Of a stretch of DNA of 64,000 nt, positions 23,505 to 31,214 are shown one piece after another. The position numbers were made by a program, and so were the translations under genes. How positions within the stretch are numbered: the stretch's first letter is position 1; the number at the start of each line of letters is the position of its first letter. The notes under the pieces were generated by a model. It was not told the origin of the DNA and did not search any database. It saw nothing but the letters and a program-made list of their open reading frames with translations. The DNA comes from a virus. Location of the stretch: the IMG/VR virus record IMGVR_UViG_3300047443_000115, positions 1-64,000 of that record, one strand, 5' to 3'.

Positions 23505-24842
23505 TCAGGCGTGCTCGATAACGACACCGCGCTTGAACAGCGCCGCGTCGCCCGTGCCCGCATCGGAGGGAACGCCGTAGTCGCCGACCCACGACCAGGT
23601 CGTGGAGATGACCTGCTGCAGACGGTCGGTCGGCGGACGCACGATCAGCGAGATGTCCACGCCGGCCGCCGGAGTGATGTTCCGGATCTCCGGCACATCC
23701 TCCACTCCCGAGCCTTCCAGGAGGGTTCCGGTCCGCTCGAACGGGGCGGCGATCAGCGCACCCGCACCGAGGACAACCGGCCGGTGCACCGTAAGCGTTG
23801 TCGCCGAGCCACCCAGGACGGTCGGGACCTCCAGGTTGCGCACCCAGTCAATCCCCGCAAACCGTCCGATGCTCAGGTCGCGGTAGATGGGTGAATCGAC
23901 CCTGCCTTGCAACGCCTGCTTGAAGTCGGAGTCGGCGAACAGCTGGGCCTCAGTGTCCGGGTCGATGTGCGCCACGTAGTAGCCGCCCAGGGTGGGGACC
24001 GCCATCTTCCGCAGGCGAGCGACCGCCGACCGGAAGTTCGCGAAGGTGACCGTGTTGGAGCTGGACAGGTCGAAGGCTGAACTGCCCGTCGCCCGGACCG
24101 AGACCGGAGCGTTCGCCGCGACCACCGAGTCGCCAGCGGTGTCCGCACGGGCCGTACCCAGGGTCAGCGTTCCCGGAGTGCCCGGAGTTACGCCGGTCAC
24201 CGTGTTCGCGACGCCCGCGATCGACACGGTCAGCGGGTTCGACGCCGACACGGCCGTCGGAACGCCGTTGACGAGTACCTTCTCGAAGCCGTTCGTGGAC
24301 TGCACGATGATCGATGAGTCCGAACCGGCCGTGGTGGTGCACCAGGTCCGGCCACCCGCGTAAGCGGTGTACAGCTTGTTCCGGGCGATCTGGTTCAGGG
24401 ACTGGCCGGCGTTGATGCCGAGCGTCTCGCCGTCGGACAGGAACTTGTTCGCCAGCGCCATCGAGCTGGACAGCATGTTGGTGTCCATGCTGTTGCCGTA
24501 CTGGTCCATCGTGACCGAGTACTGCTCAAGGTTGTACGTGGCCGCCGACGGGTCCGAACCCGTGATCGCGGTGGTCGCTGTCGCCAGCAGGCCGCGGCGG
24601 GTGAACGTCTTGGTGTCACCGAGGCCACCGGCCCACGGCTGCGGGTCGGCGATCTGCGGGAACAGGAACTCGGGCACGAGCGCGTCCTGGAAGACGCGGT
24701 CGAGGATGCCGTTCTGCAGCATCGCCCGGATCGCAGCCGGCACGGTGCTGCGCACGTCGTGTCGGTCGAGACGGAACCACGGCCGCGCCGCGCGCCGCTG
24801 GACATTCAGCCGCGGGCGGACCGCGGTCATGGTGGGGCTCAT
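23505..24842 (-). CDS. Major capsid protein, HK97 fold
   Basis: 445 residues from an ATG after AGGAG. The N-terminal 30 residues are basic and unstructured and contain WFRLDRHD (22-29), also present in the scaffold. The body has a long-helix region (MALANKFLSDGETLGINAGQ), an inserted Gly/Thr/Val-rich Ig-like stretch (about 170-240), and TFANFRSAVARLRKMAVPTL followed by YYVAHIDPDTEAQL, consistent with the HK97 capsid group. It assembles the procapsid around the scaffold encoded just upstream. Confidence 0.88.
   Translation of the reverse strand: MSPTMTAVRPRLNVQRRAARPWFRLDRHDVRSTVPAAIRAMLQNGILDRVFQDALVPEFLFPQIADPQPWAGGLGDTKTFTRRGLLATATTAITGSDPSAATYNLEQYSVTMDQYGNSMDTNMLSSSMALANKFLSDGETLGINAGQSLNQIARNKLYTAYAGGRTWCTTTAGSDSSIIVQSTNGFEKVLVNGVPTAVSASNPLTVSIAGVANTVTGVTPGTPGTLTLGTARADTAGDSVVAANAPVSVRATGSSAFDLSSSNTVTFANFRSAVARLRKMAVPTLGGYYVAHIDPDTEAQLFADSDFKQALQGRVDSPIYRDLSIGRFAGIDWVRNLEVPTVLGGSATTLTVHRPVVLGAGALIAAPFERTGTLLEGSGVEDVPEIRNITPAAGVDISLIVRPPTDRLQQVISTTWSWVGDYGVPSDAGTGDAALFKRGVVIEHA
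24757..24779 (-). repeat. WFRLDRHD-coding motif, capsid copy
   Basis: This 23-base stretch matches 25713-25735 in the scaffold gene at 22 positions; the one difference is silent. It encodes residues 22-29 of the capsid protein and may be a protease recognition site. Confidence 0.6.
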
Positions 24843-24845
24843 TCG

Positions 24846-25034
24846 TCACTCCTGGGTGATTTCTACGGACACGAGGTCCGGGTACTGCCGGGCGTATTCC
24901 TCAAGCCCGAGCAGTGCGGTTTGGGTAATTGCGGTGATCGCCGCACAGACGCGGCCGTCCACGGCGTGGCCCTCGTGACCGGACACCTCAAGGAGCGTGT
25001 GTCCGTCGCCCAACCGGGCGCGGATTTCGATCAC
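24846..25034 (-). CDS. Small Prp-like cysteine protease
   Basis: 62 residues, GTG start sharing a base with the scaffold stop. SGHEGHAVDGRVCAAITAIT carries the Prp (YsxB) signature: GH, a Gly-containing loop, then V-C-A-A before a helix ending LLGL; His20 or His23 and Cys30 are the likely dyad. Prp proteins usually have about 105 residues, so this is a minimal version lacking the C-terminal part. In staphylococcal phage 80alpha, Prp trims the N-termini of scaffold and capsid. Its position between those two genes here supports a processing role. Confidence 0.7.
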   Translation of the reverse strand: MIEIRARLGDGHTLLEVSGHEGHAVDGRVCAAITAITQTALLGLEEYARQYPDLVSVEITQE

Positions 25035-25783
25035 TAGTAGCGCTGCCGGAAGCCGACCTTCGCCAACTCGGCCGCGACCTCGTCCTTCGGGGCGCTGCGG
25101 AAGTCGGTCGCAGGTGCAGGCAGACGCGGCCCCTGGCCCGGGTCAGGCTTCGGCTGACGTACCGGCTTCTTCTCCGGCTCCGGCGCGACTGGCTCGGGCT
25201 TGGCCCAGTGGGGCTTGCGCTCCAGCAGGTCAGCCAGCGCTGCCTCGATCGCGTCGGTGTCGATCTCGCCGTCCGAGTCGACGTAGTCCTTGACGTCGCG
25301 CATCAGCACGTCCACGGCGTCGCCGACGTCGGCGAACTGGCCGACGGCCAGCACCTTCACCTCGGCCTGCACCGCTCGCGCGGTCGCCTTCGTGGCCTGA
25401 TCGGTGAGCCGCTCAGCCCTCGCCTTCTGACGGTCCAGCTCGGACTTGTCGCGGTCCTCGAAGTCCTGGACCTTCTGGGCGAGGTCGGCGAGCTGCTTCT
25501 TGGCCGTCGCGGCTTCTTTCCTTGCTGCAGCCCTGTCGGCCTTCATGCGCGCAAGGGCCCTCTTGCCCTCGTCGCCGAGCTTGTCAGCGCCCTCCGGCTC
25601 AGGGTCCGGGTCCGTGGGATCGGGATCCGGGTCCGGCTCAGGATCGGCCGGGTCGGGGTCGCCCTGGGGGTCGACAGGATCCGGGTCGGCCGGATCCACC
25701 GGGTCGGGGTCGTCGTGTCGGTCGAGCCGGAACCAGTCCGCGCCCTGGGCAGCGGACAGCCAGCTTTTACGGATGCTGTGCAT
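25034..25783 (-). CDS. Capsid scaffolding protein
   Basis: 249 residues from the ATG at 25783 (GTG at 25819 is an alternative). Residues 17-24 are WFRLDRHD; 25-62 are a DP-repeat acidic tract; 75-140 a long coiled coil (ARKEAATAKKQLADLAQKVQ); then a small helical domain and a Pro/Lys-rich basic tail that may bind capsid. Acidic-coiled-coil-basic layout and position before the capsid gene are typical of siphovirus scaffolds. Confidence 0.82.
   Translation of the reverse strand: MHSIRKSWLSAAQGADWFRLDRHDDPDPVDPADPDPVDPQGDPDPADPEPDPDPDPTDPDPEPEGADKLGDEGKRALARMKADRAAARKEAATAKKQLADLAQKVQDFEDRDKSELDRQKARAERLTDQATKATARAVQAEVKVLAVGQFADVGDAVDVLMRDVKDYVDSDGEIDTDAIEAALADLLERKPHWAKPEPVAPEPEKKPVRQPKPDPGQGPRLPAPATDFRSAPKDEVAAELAKVGFRQRY
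25713..25735 (-). repeat. WFRLDRHD-coding motif, scaffold copy
   Basis: Partner of 24757-24779 (22 of 23 bases identical); encodes scaffold residues 17-24. No third copy was noticed in other proteins of the window. Confidence 0.6.
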
Positions 25784-25843
25784 GGTGGGGTGTCTCCCAT
25801 TGCGGGATTGGTCTCGCACCGTTGCGGCGCAAGAGGTCTGTGA

Positions 25844-26122
25844 TCAGCGGGCCTTTGGCGGTTGCCCAGTCCCGGGATAAACGTCGCCGCCCAGAATCGC
25901 GGCACGTCGGGCAGCGACATGGCTCTGCTCAGCGGGGCGGGTGGTCTGGAGGCGCAGTAGCTCCTCGATCAGTTCCGTCTTCTCGCGCTCCGCCTGCTTG
26001 CATCGCTTTTGCCACTGCCGAGCGCGAGCCCGCCAGTACTCGACCGTCCCCGCCTCAATGTCAGGATCGATTTCGTCGAGCTGGCCATCGGAGGACGTTG
26101 CATCCCCATCGGAAGGCGCCAT
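25844..26122 (-). CDS. Small coiled-coil protein of the head module
   Basis: 92 residues, acidic N-terminus, then one long helix (VEYWRARARQWQKRCKQAER), ending in ILGGDVYPGTGQPPK. AAAGGAG precedes the ATG. Unknown function; between MuF-like and scaffold genes it could be an accessory scaffold or internal head protein. Confidence 0.55.
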   Translation of the reverse strand: MAPSDGDATSSDGQLDEIDPDIEAGTVEYWRARARQWQKRCKQAEREKTELIEELLRLQTTRPAEQSHVAARRAAILGGDVYPGTGQPPKAR

Positions 26123-26177: not shown

Positions 26178-28157
26178 TCAGACGCTCCAGCCCAGATAGC
26201 CGTATTGGCGGAGCAAACTGATGGCCTCGTCGCGGCTACCGGCGATGCGATAGATCTGCTCAGGCAGCAGACGCGGCGAGGAAAGTTGGAAACGCCTGGG
26301 GTACCGGGGCGAAGCCGTGCCCGCCCGATAGGCGCGCGACCGCTCCATCTGGAAGTACAGGCCGCGGCGCGTGGTGCCCTCGTAGGTGGCGCGCAGTCGG
26401 CCGCCGTAGCCGTCGGCCGCGGTGTACATGCCGCGGCGGGCGTTGACGACGGAGTTCATGTCTGCGCCGTCCCGGATCGCCTTCGCCCCGGCCTGGGTGA
26501 AGATGCGGTCCTGCTCGGCGCGGGACAGGCCCTTGAAGTAGGCCTGCGGATCGAACGCGCCGGGGATGTGGCGGTCACGAGCGATCAGCTTTGCGGGCAT
26601 ATGCGTACAGTCACAGTTTGATACAATGAGACTGTTCGCAACGTGCCACCCCTCGACCGAAGTGAGGCTGTAAACGTGCCCGCTCCACTCGCTCCGGCGA
26701 AGCTCGACTACGCGATCGAGCTCTACCTGTCCGGAAAGCCGATCCAGGAGATCGCGACCTTGGCGGGCATATCCGTCACGCGTTTCCACCGAGAACGAGT
26801 CTCCCGGGGCATCCCATCGCGGAAGACCCGCGATCTCCCCATCAGTGAAATCGCGTCCGCCTACCTCAATGGAGCCAGCGAGTTCGCGCTCGGCAAGCAG
26901 TACGGGGTGTCCCGAAATGTCATCGCGCGCCGCCTCGCGGAAGCCGGAGTACAGCGGCGTGACGCCAGTGAAGCTGGCGTTGTCAGGGCGGCCAAGTTGA
27001 GCGCTGGCGAGCGCAAGACCCAGGCCGCCGCCGCCAACCGGGCCGCCCGATTGCGTCGCGTCCCACAGATTCAAAAGCATCGACGCGCGCTCGGCATCGA
27101 ACTGGCCGGTCAAGCCCAGTCCTCCGGCGAGGCCGAGTTGCACCAACTTCTTGCCGACCGTGGCCAGATTGCCACTCGCCAGCGCGCGATCGGCGTATAC
27201 AACGTCGACCTCGCCTTGCTGCCCGTCGCCGTGGAAGTCCTCGGTGGCGGTTGGCATGCGGTCAAGACCGTGCACGCTGAGCGCACCCCATACGTCCTCG
27301 ATGAGGGATGGCATCTCGTGATGGTCTGGGACTACGAGGGGCGTAGCGCCCTCGGGGCGGGTGCTGCGGACTACCTCGTCGCCTTCTTGGATGAGGTTCG
27401 CCGGAACCCACCCGCGACTTGTCAGTACCGGGTGATTTCCGGTCAGGGCGAGGTTCTGGCCGCTCGCGGTAGAGAGGACAATGAGTTCCCCTTGGAACCA
27501 CCGCCGCGTGGCCGCCTGTGACCTAGGCCCCGACACCACCACTCCGGCCGGGAAGCAGCGCGGATGCCGTTGGAAGCCGGTATTCCAGCCGTACTCACGT
27601 CCGGCGAGGACGATGCACCGACTGCACGCGGGCGGGTTGACCACCCGGATATAGCCGTTGATCGTGCGGTTCCCCGCGATCGACACCCCGGTGGCCGCCC
27701 TCCCGGCGTCCGTGACCTCCGACGCCGCCATGCGCAGCAACTGCTGCAGGCCCGTCATCATCGCCTCGACCTCATCGACGCCTGCCGCGATGGCCGTCTT
27801 CGACGTGATGAGCGGCAGATCCAGCAGCGTGTCCAGCGACCGACCATCAGCAGCAAGCCCAGCGAAGGCCTCTGGACGGACACGGCCCGCGGGATCCGAA
27901 CTCAGACCCCGTGCCGCGATGATGGACTCGACGTAGGCGTCTGCGGCTGCCGCCGTAGCCAACTGGCCGGCGGTCACCGTGCGGACCACCTCCGGGCCGA
28001 TGTAGATGGCCCACGAACGGCTCAGATCGCGGCGGTCGATCTCCCGCCACAACTGCTGAACCCGGTCCGCCACCCGGCGGGCATGCGACTGCTGAGCCAC
28101 ATAGAAGGCGTTCGCGAGCTCCTCGGCCGACAAATCCCGCACCGACCCCGTGGCCAT
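26178..28157 (-). CDS. MuF-like head morphogenesis protein interrupted by an intein
   Basis: 659-residue precursor. N-extein 1-200 is a helical portal-associated domain ending ACSRCIVLAGREYGWNTGF, QRHPR; C-extein 515-659 begins CDCTHMPAKLI. Removal of residues 201-514 restores the family motif HPRCDCTHMP, giving a 345-residue mature protein. The intein (Hint blocks present) lies at the zinc-like motif, the most conserved spot. The gene overlaps the portal stop and lies in the usual portal-MuF-scaffold order. It probably rides inside the procapsid near the portal. Confidence 0.87.
   Translation of the reverse strand: MATGSVRDLSAEELANAFYVAQQSHARRVADRVQQLWREIDRRDLSRSWAIYIGPEVVRTVTAGQLATAAAADAYVESIIAARGLSSDPAGRVRPEAFAGLAADGRSLDTLLDLPLITSKTAIAAGVDEVEAMMTGLQQLLRMAASEVTDAGRAATGVSIAGNRTINGYIRVVNPPACSRCIVLAGREYGWNTGFQRHPRCFPAGVVVSGPRSQAATRRWFQGELIVLSTASGQNLALTGNHPVLTSRGWVPANLIQEGDEVVRSTRPEGATPLVVPDHHEMPSLIEDVWGALSVHGLDRMPTATEDFHGDGQQGEVDVVYADRALASGNLATVGKKLVQLGLAGGLGLTGQFDAERASMLLNLWDATQSGGPVGGGGLGLALASAQLGRPDNASFTGVTPLYSGFREAARDDISGHPVLLAERELAGSIEVGGRDFTDGEIAGLPRWDAPGDSFSVETRDGYARQGRDLLDRLSGQVELDRVVELRRSEWSGHVYSLTSVEGWHVANSLIVSNCDCTHMPAKLIARDRHIPGAFDPQAYFKGLSRAEQDRIFTQAGAKAIRDGADMNSVVNARRGMYTAADGYGGRLRATYEGTTRRGLYFQMERSRAYRAGTASPRYPRRFQLSSPRLLPEQIYRIAGSRDEAISLLRQYGYLGWSV
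26616..27557 (-). mobile_element. Intein in the MuF-like gene
   Basis: 314 codons. Block A begins at Cys201 (CFPAGVVV); block B is LALTGNHPVLTSRGWVPA with the TxxH pair Thr239/His242; block F is VYSLTSVEGWHVANSLIVSN; the last residue is Asn514, followed by Cys515 as +1 nucleophile. The penultimate residue is Ser, not His, which is tolerated in some inteins. The middle 200 residues have no LAGLIDADG or HNH motifs; the nuclease is on the opposite strand. Confidence 0.85.
26643..27521 (+). CDS. Vsr-like homing endonuclease, antisense within the intein DNA
   Basis: 292 residues (GTG 26643; GTG 26676 is possible and better placed to GAGG). Two HTH units (IQEIATLAGISVTRFHRERV; FALGKQYGVSRNVIARRLAE) precede a Vsr/PD-(D/E)XK-like core: GEAELHQLL (Glu163/165), YNVDLALLPVAVEVLGGGWH (Asp189, Glu198, His205) and WHLVMVWDY. 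It lies wholly inside the intein. Its codons are in register with the sense codons, so its stops would need sense TTA, CTA or TCA, which are rare here. The last 35 residues may be a shadow of the Hint domain. Confidence 0.75.
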   Translation: MPPLDRSEAVNVPAPLAPAKLDYAIELYLSGKPIQEIATLAGISVTRFHRERVSRGIPSRKTRDLPISEIASAYLNGASEFALGKQYGVSRNVIARRLAEAGVQRRDASEAGVVRAAKLSAGERKTQAAAANRAARLRRVPQIQKHRRALGIELAGQAQSSGEAELHQLLADRGQIATRQRAIGVYNVDLALLPVAVEVLGGGWHAVKTVHAERTPYVLDEGWHLVMVWDYEGRSALGAGAADYLVAFLDEVRRNPPATCQYRVISGQGEVLAARGREDNEFPLEPPPRGRL

Positions 28158-29590
28158 CAGGCCACCTCCGCGGGTTCGGGATCAGCCTCAGGCATGACGG
28201 GATCGGGCGGAGGCTTCGGGCCCGCCTCCAGCGCCGAGAAGTCGCCCGCCATGATGCGCTGCATCGCGTCCTGCGCGGCGGCCTCGTCCTCTTCCTCCAT
28301 GCGCTCGATCTGCGCCTGCGTGTACCGCAGGTCTTCGCGCGTCTGCCGGAGAGGCACGATCTTCGCCTGGAACTTCTTCACCGAAGCGTCCGCGACCTGC
28401 GCCACCGTCGGAGTTGAAGCGTCCCGCCAGATCGTCTCCAGTGACCGGGCCGCCGGATCCCACTCGCCATCCTTCACTCGCAGCACAAGCCGCATGACGC
28501 GCTCCCACGAGCCGCCCCACGCCCGCTGCTTCCGCTCCGCGCGCTTCACCAGGCGGGTCTCGCTACTGCGGATCGCATCCGCCGAGGCCGGGTTCTGGGT
28601 GCTGTAGCCCAGGAACTGCGGAGGTAGACCGGACAGGCTGGAGACCAGCTGCGCGAGCTGATTCAGCGTGCTGTGGAAGTTGCTGAGCGACGCTTCCGGG
28701 AACTGGACGACATCCGCGCCATCCTGCTTGGAGCGCTCCGTCGCCCACATCCGGCCGATGATCCGGCTGAACGCCGACACCCGACGGCCGGACTCATCGA
28801 CGAAGTCCTCCTCGCCGAAGCCGAACGCCACGCGCCGCGGCGTTGCGTGATACTCGGCGCTGACCATCATGTCCGTTGCGATCTTGCAGGCCGCGTCGGA
28901 CAGTGGGATGACGTCCTGGAGCTCCGACACACCGCCCGGACACTTCAGGCGCGGCCGGTTCGGCAGCACCTCGACCAGAACCTCGCCCGTCTCGTGCTCA
29001 TCCCTCGGATACTCCGGATCCTCGACCCAATGACCCGACTCCTTCACCCACCACACCGTGGCGTCCGGCAGGTACAGCGTCGCGTGATCGACCTTCCGGC
29101 CCTCGTCGCCGTCCTCCTGCCAGCGCTTCACCGCAGCCGCCACCCGACGCGTCCGAGGATCGAACTCCGCGAACATGTCCAAGGCGCTCTCGACGGTGAT
29201 CAGCGGCGTCGAGTCGTCATCCTCGTTCGCGCCCACCACGATGTACGAGCGCCGCATCGCCAGGGCATCCAGGTGCCCCATCTGCGACTGCTCGTCCATG
29301 TCATTGGCCTGCCAGATCCGCCAGAGCTCGTCATCGGCGTCCGCCACGCCGGGGAAACGGAAGCCCTCCACGTCCAGGCGCTCCTCGATGCTGTCGACGA
29401 TCAGGCGCGGCCAGTTGATGACGACCTGGCGAACCGTCTCCTGCAACTCCACCTGAAGCTCCGGCGCCATGTACGACAGCGGCTGAGAGCCCTCGTAGTA
29501 GGAGTTCAGGCGCTTGAGCTCGTTCAACTCCTTGTCGTGGCACGAGATCAGGTGAGTCAGCCACTGCAGCTCGGAGCGCTCCACAGGCAC
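28157..29590 (-). CDS. Portal protein, SPP1 gp6 type
   Basis: 477 residues. LNSYYEGSQPLSYM near the N-terminus, INWPRLIVDSIEERLDVEGF, a central beta-rich wing with KVDHATLYLPDATVWWVKES, FSRIIGRMWATERSKQ, and the GLPPQFLGYSTQNPASADAI clip-stem motif followed by the RSSETRLVKRAERKQ helix are characteristic of SPP1-like portals. It forms the dodecameric DNA entry ring and docks TerL. One-base overlap with the next gene. Confidence 0.92.
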   Translation of the reverse strand: MPVERSELQWLTHLISCHDKELNELKRLNSYYEGSQPLSYMAPELQVELQETVRQVVINWPRLIVDSIEERLDVEGFRFPGVADADDELWRIWQANDMDEQSQMGHLDALAMRRSYIVVGANEDDDSTPLITVESALDMFAEFDPRTRRVAAAVKRWQEDGDEGRKVDHATLYLPDATVWWVKESGHWVEDPEYPRDEHETGEVLVEVLPNRPRLKCPGGVSELQDVIPLSDAACKIATDMMVSAEYHATPRRVAFGFGEEDFVDESGRRVSAFSRIIGRMWATERSKQDGADVVQFPEASLSNFHSTLNQLAQLVSSLSGLPPQFLGYSTQNPASADAIRSSETRLVKRAERKQRAWGGSWERVMRLVLRVKDGEWDPAARSLETIWRDASTPTVAQVADASVKKFQAKIVPLRQTREDLRYTQAQIERMEEEDEAAAQDAMQRIMAGDFSALEAGPKPPPDPVMPEADPEPAEVA

Positions 29591-29594
29591 CCCC

Positions 29595-31214
29595 TCACCG
29601 CATGACGATCATCTTGGACTTCTTCTTGGGACGGGCCAGGCCGGCGGCCGTCGCATCCCCAGCGGCCTCATGGGCGAGGATGCTCGGGATCGCAGCGTCG
29701 ATCTTCTGAGACGGGCTCGCCTTGCCGAGCACATACCGGCCGCCGACACGGGCCGCCTTACGGGCGTTCCGGACGTGCGCGGCCGTGATCACACAGCCGT
29801 CATGCCGGAACACCGACTCCGTCTTCGTGACGTCCGTTAGCAGTCGCTCCGCCGCCGCATGCATCTGCACCGTGCGGTACGTGTACCAGCGCACGACGCG
29901 CTTTTCGCCGTGTCGGTCCGCCCATCCGTCGACCTCCGACTCCCAGTACGGCGGATCGCAGTACATGCGCAGCACGTCGAAACGCGCGAACACCTCGTCG
30001 ACCGCCGCGGCCACTTCAAGGCGAGGCACCTGGCCGCCGTAGTCCGCCGGATTCCAGATTGTCGGCAACTCATCCGGGCCGAATGTCGGCGTGAACTGGT
30101 AGCCGTCCAGCGTCTCCAGGCGGAGCGCTGTCCAGTCATCAACGTCCGAGCCGTCGAAGCCGGCCACGACCGTCGTGCCGTCCGGGACCTCGCGGAACTC
30201 CGCGAGGGTGTCCCAGGCGTCGCCGTTCATCCAAGACCCGGCGCCGTACACGATGCGGTTCCCGAAGAATCGCTCCGCCTGCTCCGGATCCTTCTCCAGT
30301 AGCTCGGCAGCCTCCGCCTCGATCGCATCCAGGTCGACGTGCGTCGAGCCCATGTAGACATGCCGGTGGATCTTCCGCCGGTCCGTCTTGTTCGTGTACT
30401 TCAGCGACGCCGGCGGCACCCGGTGGAACCGGAAGATGTCCTTGACCTTCGCCTCGGACGTGGCCTGCGCGACGCTGTTCTCCGACGGGTTCCACGCATT
30501 CGTGGTCTCCATCGTGCGGCCACCCATACCGGCGGCGCCGCGGCGCTGGGTCGTGGCAACCCGGTCCATCTTGTTCGCCGGAGTCCACAGTTGGGTCTCA
30601 TCCTGAAGGACGAACGTCACCGGGTTACCCAGGCGGGACTGCGCGCTGCTGGTGACGACGTCGATGCGGCCGTCATTCGGAAGGCGAATGAACTGCTCCC
30701 CGACCCGCATCAGCTCACCCAACGGGCCGGTTCGGATCATCGCCTGCAGAGGCCGGTAGACGTTGTCGGTCTGCTCCTCCGAGAACGCCGTGATCTGCAC
30801 CAGCGGCGTCGGCCACGGAATCGCCATCGGCTCTCCCGGTGAGTACTCGTACACCCACCCGCAGCCGCAACCATGATCGCGGCAGTCGTACACCTCGCCG
30901 CCAACCGCCCAGCCGTCAAAGACCGCTGGTCCAACGCCCTCATTCGCACAGACCGCCGCAGTCCACGGACCTTTCCCCGTCTTCTGAGGAGCAACACACT
31001 GGGACCGGCGGTAGAAGAACGCCGGCGCCAACTGGCCCACCGTCGCAGTTGGCTTCACGCGGTAGAAGTTCGCCGTGCACCACAACTGCCAGTCGTACAT
31101 CTGGAACGGCTCACCCTTGCGGAAGCCATCCGGAATGCGGCAATGCTCCTCGATCCAGTCGCAAGCCACCCACAGCGTCGGAAAGTCGACGACGAACTCG
31201 CTACTCTTCTCCAT
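29595..31214 (-). CDS. terL: Terminase large subunit
   Basis: 539 residues. ATPase: Walker A variant APQKTGKGPW (75-84), Walker B VTFVLQDETQ, coupling motif METTNAW. Nuclease: AGFDGSDVDDWTAL, MYCDPPYWESEVDGW and KIDAAIPSILAHEAA supply the RNase H-like acidic triad. It packages DNA into the procapsid through the portal. It overlaps the TerS gene by 14 bases. Confidence 0.94.
   Translation of the reverse strand: MEKSSEFVVDFPTLWVACDWIEEHCRIPDGFRKGEPFQMYDWQLWCTANFYRVKPTATVGQLAPAFFYRRSQCVAPQKTGKGPWTAAVCANEGVGPAVFDGWAVGGEVYDCRDHGCGCGWVYEYSPGEPMAIPWPTPLVQITAFSEEQTDNVYRPLQAMIRTGPLGELMRVGEQFIRLPNDGRIDVVTSSAQSRLGNPVTFVLQDETQLWTPANKMDRVATTQRRGAAGMGGRTMETTNAWNPSENSVAQATSEAKVKDIFRFHRVPPASLKYTNKTDRRKIHRHVYMGSTHVDLDAIEAEAAELLEKDPEQAERFFGNRIVYGAGSWMNGDAWDTLAEFREVPDGTTVVAGFDGSDVDDWTALRLETLDGYQFTPTFGPDELPTIWNPADYGGQVPRLEVAAAVDEVFARFDVLRMYCDPPYWESEVDGWADRHGEKRVVRWYTYRTVQMHAAAERLLTDVTKTESVFRHDGCVITAAHVRNARKAARVGGRYVLGKASPSQKIDAAIPSILAHEAAGDATAAGLARPKKKSKMIVMR

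Follow-up and report, generated by a model that had tools for sequence, protein, structure and literature searches.

Background

The locus analyzed here raises the question of why a gene for a 62-residue protein resembling the protease Prp should lie between the scaffold and major capsid protein (MCP) genes of a phage, and why the products of these two genes share the octapeptide WFRLDRHD close to their N-termini. Prp is usually studied as an essential ribosome protease of the Firmicutes that is borrowed by the staphylococcal phage 80alpha. S. aureus Prp cuts the 80alpha scaffold at FNLQFF|A, the capsid protein at LNLQHF|A and the ribosomal protein L27 at LNLQFF|A (PMC5744158, PMC9405229). An earlier note on this DNA was right to describe 80alpha as being trimmed by the host Prp (PMC5744158). 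In 80alpha, phages with an uncleavable capsid or scaffold protein are viable; an intact scaffold N-terminus is essential, a scaffold that is synthesized leaderless does not assemble, and a shared chaperone has been suggested for the N-termini of both proteins (PMC5744158).

The window (the whole stretch of DNA analyzed, 64,000 nucleotides) is part of a 91,588-base IMG/VR virus record. From comparisons of sequences we estimate, with a probability of about 0.83, that the phage encodes a shortened Prp (mini-Prp) acting as a processing protease, with cognate leaders on its scaffold and capsid proteins and a diverged specificity. Prp itself, the site it recognizes and its action on the scaffold and capsid of a phage (80alpha) were known already; what is new is that a phage owns the gene together with cognate leaders, that the enzyme is very small, that the site has diverged and that the hosts are Prp-less.

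Organization of the head module

The head module is located on the minus strand in the order terminase (29595-31214), portal protein (28157-29590; Pfam SPP1_portal, E = 6e-59), MuF-like minor head protein split by an intein (26178-28157; Pfam VG15 at 25.9 bits with a cut-off of 26, Intein_splicing E = 0.0035), a small 92-aa gene without clear family match just 5' of the scaffold (25844-26122), scaffold, Prp-like gene and MCP. The scaffold gene (25034-25783, minus strand) encodes 249 aa from its ATG, with an alternative in-frame GTG start possible at 25819, and was identified by PHROG 4708 (head scaffolding protein, E = 7e-21) as well as by the Streptomyces phage Kromp, which has the same gene order and a counterpart annotated as scaffolding protein. 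Its stop overlaps by 1 nt with the start of the mini-Prp gene (24846-25034, minus strand; 62 aa from a GTG start, sequence MIEIRARLGDGHTLLEVSGHEGHAVDGRVCAAITAITQTALLGLEEYARQYPDLVSVEITQE; Pfam PF04327, His20/Cys30), and the Prp-like protein thus lies where the earlier note had seen it, between scaffold and MCP.

The MCP (23505-24842, minus strand; 445 aa, HK97 fold) matched PHROG 1357 (major head protein, E = 1.7e-26), and its AF2 model resembles phage capsids (best 8h89, E = 5e-10). In this model the leader and motif (residues 1-28) are disordered, with pLDDT < 50 at residues 1-20 and 23-28, and the HK97 fold starts directly after them.

A Prp-like protein apparently without a middle segment

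Against PF04327 (Peptidase_Prp; cut-off 27) the mini-Prp scored 28.0 bits with and 26.5 bits without its initiator Met. All 52 aligned relatives matched this family at E ≤ 0.001, 12/15 prophage copies were above the cut-off, and the relatives' profile found S. mutans SMU.848 (2g0i, E = 3e-5) and S. aureus Prp (4peo/7kld, E = 8e-4) in the PDB. The NCBIfam equivalogs for ribosomal-processing Prp were not reached (20.6 bits vs. a cut-off of 133), and a Foldseek search of the 62-aa monomer model against the PDB returned no Prp structure and nothing significant (best E 3), the monomer being probably too small. We regard the Prp assignment as modest but consistent.

The AF2 model is a beta-beta-helix structure (mean pLDDT 94.6), and the profile matches fall in two pieces: the beginning of Prp is matched by residues 1-48, its C-terminal helix and strand by residues 36-61. 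In comparison with the Firmicutes Prps (4peo/7kld, 2g0i, PF04327), the GH...CA dyad, the beta-beta-helix start and a Ser/Thr four residues after the Cys (C+4) are common to both, whereas in the mini-Prp some 30-35 residues of the fold are gone, equivalent to about positions 53-81 in S. aureus Prp; its loop is two residues shorter, and it has no Asp31 and no L27 leader to process. It therefore looks like a Prp without its middle segment, in which two helices have merged into one. A deletion between similar helix runs would be a simple route to such a protein, as the two helices of full-length Prps contain runs that resemble each other (e.g., AIAQTAILGL and AILQTALLGL in L330).

The dyad equivalents His20 and Cys30 are invariant in 106/106 distinct relatives, the Ser/Thr at C+4 is retained, and the gene is under purifying selection (median dN/dS 0.24). 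The equivalent of Asp31, three residues before the Cys, is absent from all 106 mini-Prps (Gly in 102, Ser in 4). Mutation of Asp31 abolishes the activity of S. aureus Prp, in which its role is structural and not catalytic according to the covalent complex (PMC9405229). Since TM1457, a Prp-family protein of solved structure, also aligns without an Asp at C-3, this residue does not define the family. Short Prps of 63-77 aa were also encountered outside the Actinobacteria (L419, L422, L434, L448, and L405), with lengths of 63 aa in L419, 65 in L448 and 70 in L434 among the Firmicutes-type loci. The internal deletion probably preceded the loss of the Asp, because these short non-actinobacterial Prps keep a KDIVCA-type loop.

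The octapeptide and its co-occurrence with Prp

In the scaffold, the leader MHSIRKSWLSAAQGAD is followed by WFRLDRHD at residues 17-24 (codons at 25713-25735, minus strand; predicted scissile bond H23|D24), and in the MCP the same octapeptide occupies residues 22-29 (codons at 24757-24779, minus strand; predicted scissile bond H28|D29). Both positions, as well as the agreement of the two 23-base stretches at 22 bases, are as first reported. Within the whole 91,588-base record WFRLDRHD occurs in these two proteins only, the core F-x-[LIVM]-x-R-H is absent from all other frames of ≥ 60 aa in that record, and a degenerate 23-mer search of the window retrieved the same 2 sites, with 0.02 expected by chance.

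Relatives were collected by scans of IMG/VR and bacterial genomes, which yielded 113 distinct loci that contain Prp and MCP and in which the start of the scaffold can be read. The named hosts were Streptomyces, Glycomyces, Catenulispora, Sphaerimonospora, Actinoallomurus, Kineosporia, and Streptosporangiaceae. Throughout the 113 loci the gene order is scaffold-Prp-MCP, and W-F-x-L-x-R-H-D/A or a close variant is present on both scaffold and MCP. The pattern common to both proteins is [W][F]-x-[L/I]-x-R-[H/F]-[D/A/N/E], the third and fifth positions being free, as expected for an extended strand that is read on one face. A close named relative is Kromp (gp5-gp7, MH744420), in which gp6 is 72% identical to the mini-Prp and annotated as 'protease' without mention of a substrate, a motif or the Prp family; the motif reads WFQLTRHD on its scaffold and WFRLDRHD on its MCP, which is 55% identical to the MCP of the window.

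Of the 129 distinct MCP loci for which 450 nt or more of upstream sequence is available, 124 have Prp, and in the remaining 5 the leader and the motif are absent too. A further Prp-less set was obtained by a search seeded with the capsid protein of Komagataeibacter phage phiKX1 (72 loci with upstream DNA). None of these 72 more distant relatives has a Prp within 2.6 kb upstream and all are leaderless, their MCPs having a short M-x-I-x-N-F-P-like start (e.g., MAIANFP...) with an initiator Met that aligns with the column of D29 in the window. D29 is the predicted new N-terminus after the cut, and the Prp-less capsids would show the expected trimmed form. Relatives that keep the motif and lack the protease, which the earlier note had named as evidence against its proposal, were not found among these loci.

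Some loci deviate from the general pattern. In a Kineosporia locus (L332, 1-1704) Prp is present, the MCP leader (ERPGWLRVPFQRAAVASHDIV) contains an insertion of seven residues and shows no clear site, and the scaffold start lies off the contig. Four Prp-less loci (L081 and L131-L133) have a leaderless MCP and a scaffold start, MKMNRNWLESGFTLFFNADAG, that resembles an L27-type site; in these relatives a host Prp may act on the scaffold alone. The scaffold of L006 was considered as an exception and rejected, as a frame break of the contig hides the motif, which is present in another frame.

Agreement between scaffold and capsid sites

Among the 113 actinobacterial loci, the site is standard in both proteins in 90, variant in both in 16 and variant in the scaffold only in 7 (one of them being the frame break of L006), with no locus variant in the MCP only. 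The same variant can recur on both proteins, i.e., RH to LH in L064, F to L in L067 and RH to RF in L137, and variants also agree in the L075 group and in L321. Fisher's test gives p = 2e-14 for this agreement, a value that ignores kinship and is not to be taken at face value; once corrected for the tree, the actinobacterial family provides about 6 changes and 3 well-supported independent pairs, which are not significant alone. We also applied a shuffled-pair test, without tree correction, to 40 loci in which phage-borne Prps accompany diverse capsids and are less than 70% identical to one another. Matches between the two sites of a genome exceeded those of shuffled pairs at P6 (18 vs. 10.1, p = 0.002), P2 (26 vs. 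17.6, p < 0.0002) and P1' (30 vs. 23.7, p = 0.001). A common reader would be the simplest cause of this agreement between scaffold and capsid sites.

From L27-type sites to WFRLDRH|D

Bridging sites were found in Firmicutes-type prophages (NLQRF|N and, in L433, WLFRLQRF|N and FDLQRF|N) and, nearer to WFRLDRH|D, in L137 (LNLRRF|D and LFDLSRF|D) and L324 (LFDLARF|D), and the loci with these bridging motifs carry Prp. Kept along the series are Leu at P4, an aromatic residue (Phe) or His at P1 and a small or acidic residue at P1'. The register of the predicted cut, after the His, follows from these intermediates that link WFRLDRH|D to LNLQFF|A. The comparison supports WFRLDRHD as a diverged L27-type site and not an unrelated new one. 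The idea of a new recognition motif put forward in the earlier note holds insofar as the octapeptide differs from LNLQFF|A, and needs to be softened insofar as intermediates join the two.

Hosts without Prp

In 15 host genomes with this type of prophage the prophage gene was the only match to PF04327, and L27 starts with MAHKKG, i.e., is leaderless, in 15/15, which bears out the previous assertion that Streptomyces L27 has no leader. Of 199 Streptomyces genomes, 197 had no match to PF04327, and in the remaining 2 the match is this prophage locus. With the prophage gene as the sole Prp and with L27 lacking a leader, the mini-Prp has no ribosomal job in these hosts and there is no host Prp that the phage could borrow. 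Firmicutes hosts, in contrast, have their own Prp and a long L27 (PMC9405229).

Both 80alpha and the phage studied here have an N-terminal motif common to scaffold and capsid, a Prp-family protein and an HK97-fold capsid built with a scaffold. The leaders are of similar size (13-14 residues in 80alpha vs. a predicted 23 for the scaffold and 28 for the MCP here). However, the protease of 80alpha is supplied by a host with an L27 leader and its own Prp, both absent from the hosts here, whereas in our case it is encoded by the phage between the genes of both substrates. The site and enzyme differ as well, LNLQFF|A and 106 residues (S. aureus Prp) as compared to WFRLDRH|D and 62 residues, and cleavage is demonstrated for 80alpha and predicted for the present phage.

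Phage-borne Prps in other phages

A scan of IMG/VR with full-length Prp gave at least 459 matches, phage-borne Prps being common. In 56 distinct loci, an L27-like motif starts 72/107 of the larger genes just downstream of Prp, as opposed to 2/88 upstream. Isolated phages combining Prp with an L27-like motif are the Lactococcus phages PLgT-1 and TP712 and the Oenococcus phage Krappator27 (PHROG 4478, 'peptidase'), which carry Prp in the head module as here. The scaffold and capsid sites read LNLQLF|A and FNLQRF|A in PLgT-1, and LNLQRF|A and INLQRF|A in Krappator27. These Firmicutes phage Prps are mostly full length, with a KDIVCA loop and an L27-type site, unlike the mini-Prp. Moreover, the linkage of Prp, scaffold and capsid recurs with unrelated capsid families. 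A phage-borne Prp adjoining scaffold and capsid is widespread and not special to this phage. In IMG/VR loci (L391-L470) and Lactococcus and Oenococcus phages (L471-L473), Prp is present despite the hosts' own Prp, together with L27-like leaders on scaffold and capsid. Odd sites among the Firmicutes-type phages include DLRLF|D (L421), VNLRLF|D (L452), and DLQKF (L400).

Database labels such as 'protease' and 'peptidase' already exist for phage-borne Prps. Among the open-access papers searched, none describes a Prp that is encoded by a phage and acts on the capsid of that phage; an earlier mention in Wall et al. 2015, 2017 is possible.

Proposed mechanism and alternative explanations

We infer that the mini-Prp cuts, that it does so behind the His and that this cleavage has a role in assembly or maturation. 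Scaffold and MCP would each start with a disordered leader ending in W-F-x-L-x-R-H|D, which the mini-Prp would bind as an extended strand with F, L, R and H fixed and the residues between them free. A cut after the His would remove 23 residues from the scaffold and 28 from the MCP around the time of assembly, and the leader may keep both proteins assembly-competent until the protease acts. The protease would be encoded by the phage because actinobacterial hosts possess neither Prp nor a leader-bearing L27, and the phage probably trims its own shell proteins in such Prp-less hosts. The earlier note had proposed that the phage brings its own mini-Prp to mature its procapsid; the phage ownership and the lack of Prp in the hosts agree with this, while maturation of the procapsid goes too far, as cleavage is dispensable in 80alpha (PMC5744158).

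The main rival, which we consider unlikely, is that the mini-Prp binds the motif without cutting, as an ex-protease that became a chaperone uniting scaffold and capsid or shielding their N-termini until assembly. It is kept alive by the loss of the Asp31 equivalent in 106/106 relatives, and a large internal deletion as well as the 80alpha data (need for an intact scaffold N-terminus and not for cleavage, suggested shared chaperone; PMC5744158) would fit it too. Nevertheless, such a binding protein would not account well for the invariance of Cys and His in all 106 or the conserved Ser/Thr at C+4, TM1457 also does without an Asp at C-3, and the Prp-less capsids start exactly at the predicted cut. 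That the octapeptide itself serves the co-assembly of scaffold and capsid, or is recognized by some other factor, with the Prp-like gene as an unrelated neighbor, appears more doubtful still. Its position on the two proteins that must co-assemble, within flexible N-termini (as judged by the MCP model), is what this explanation would predict, but the motif and Prp are gained and lost together, Prp-carrying intermediates connect the motif step by step with the known Prp site, and the linkage of Prp with scaffold and capsid is found with unrelated capsid families.

Least credible of all is a cause at the DNA level (recent duplication, recombination hot spot or regulatory site) for the 23 shared bases, in place of a peptide function. 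The identity of 22/23 bases in this genome could be read in this way; however, the scaffold and MCP motifs of the 113 relatives agree on average at only 18.1/24 bases (5.6/8 residues), identical octapeptides on both proteins occur in only 5 relatives, and F-x-L-x-R-H persists as the fixed core. The DNA-level explanation was rejected, as base identity falls off among relatives and the peptide core stays; the identity of the octapeptides is at the peptide level.

Beyond the processing protease proposed for this phage, it seems likely that phage Prps constitute a widespread class of head-processing enzymes with co-evolved leader sites, whose actinobacterial branch, of about 62 residues and internally deleted, would be among the smallest known proteases, with a site shifted from LNLQFF|A to WFxLxRH|D and no ribosomal substrate. 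That many phages, those of Prp-less hosts among them, carry Prp genes with matching leaders in their head modules suggests, speculatively, that phage head processing is a main role of the Prp family and perhaps the older one. The loci offer a natural series of enzymes and sites for the study of Prp specificity, which is relevant to Prp as a drug target, possibly a minimal protease, and a testable explanation of capsid trimming in the many scaffold-bearing phages that have no classical prohead protease.

The MuF-like gene

Classical prohead proteases (ClpP-like, S49, S78/U35, and U9 types) had no match among the 7 minus-strand proteins of the head module, including the MuF-like protein, which was disfavored as an alternative maturation protease as it matches no protease family. 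Its counterpart in Kromp, gp4 (L129, 3784-4800), is labelled 'capsid maturation protease', while the product in the window matches only the VG15 and intein families; judged by these family matches, the label may belong to gp6.

A plus-strand frame of 292 aa (26643-27521) runs antisense inside the intein region of the MuF-like gene (26178-28157, minus strand) and resembles homing endonucleases, with a helix-turn-helix and a DUF559-like nuclease. A conserved antisense gene within an intein would be unusual; in Gordonia phage Malisha, a homologue that aligns from end to end at 36% identity (E = 8e-43) likewise lies antisense to a gene of the MuF region, and similar matches lie beneath MuF-like or head morphogenesis genes of other Gordonia phages and of Salmonella phages.
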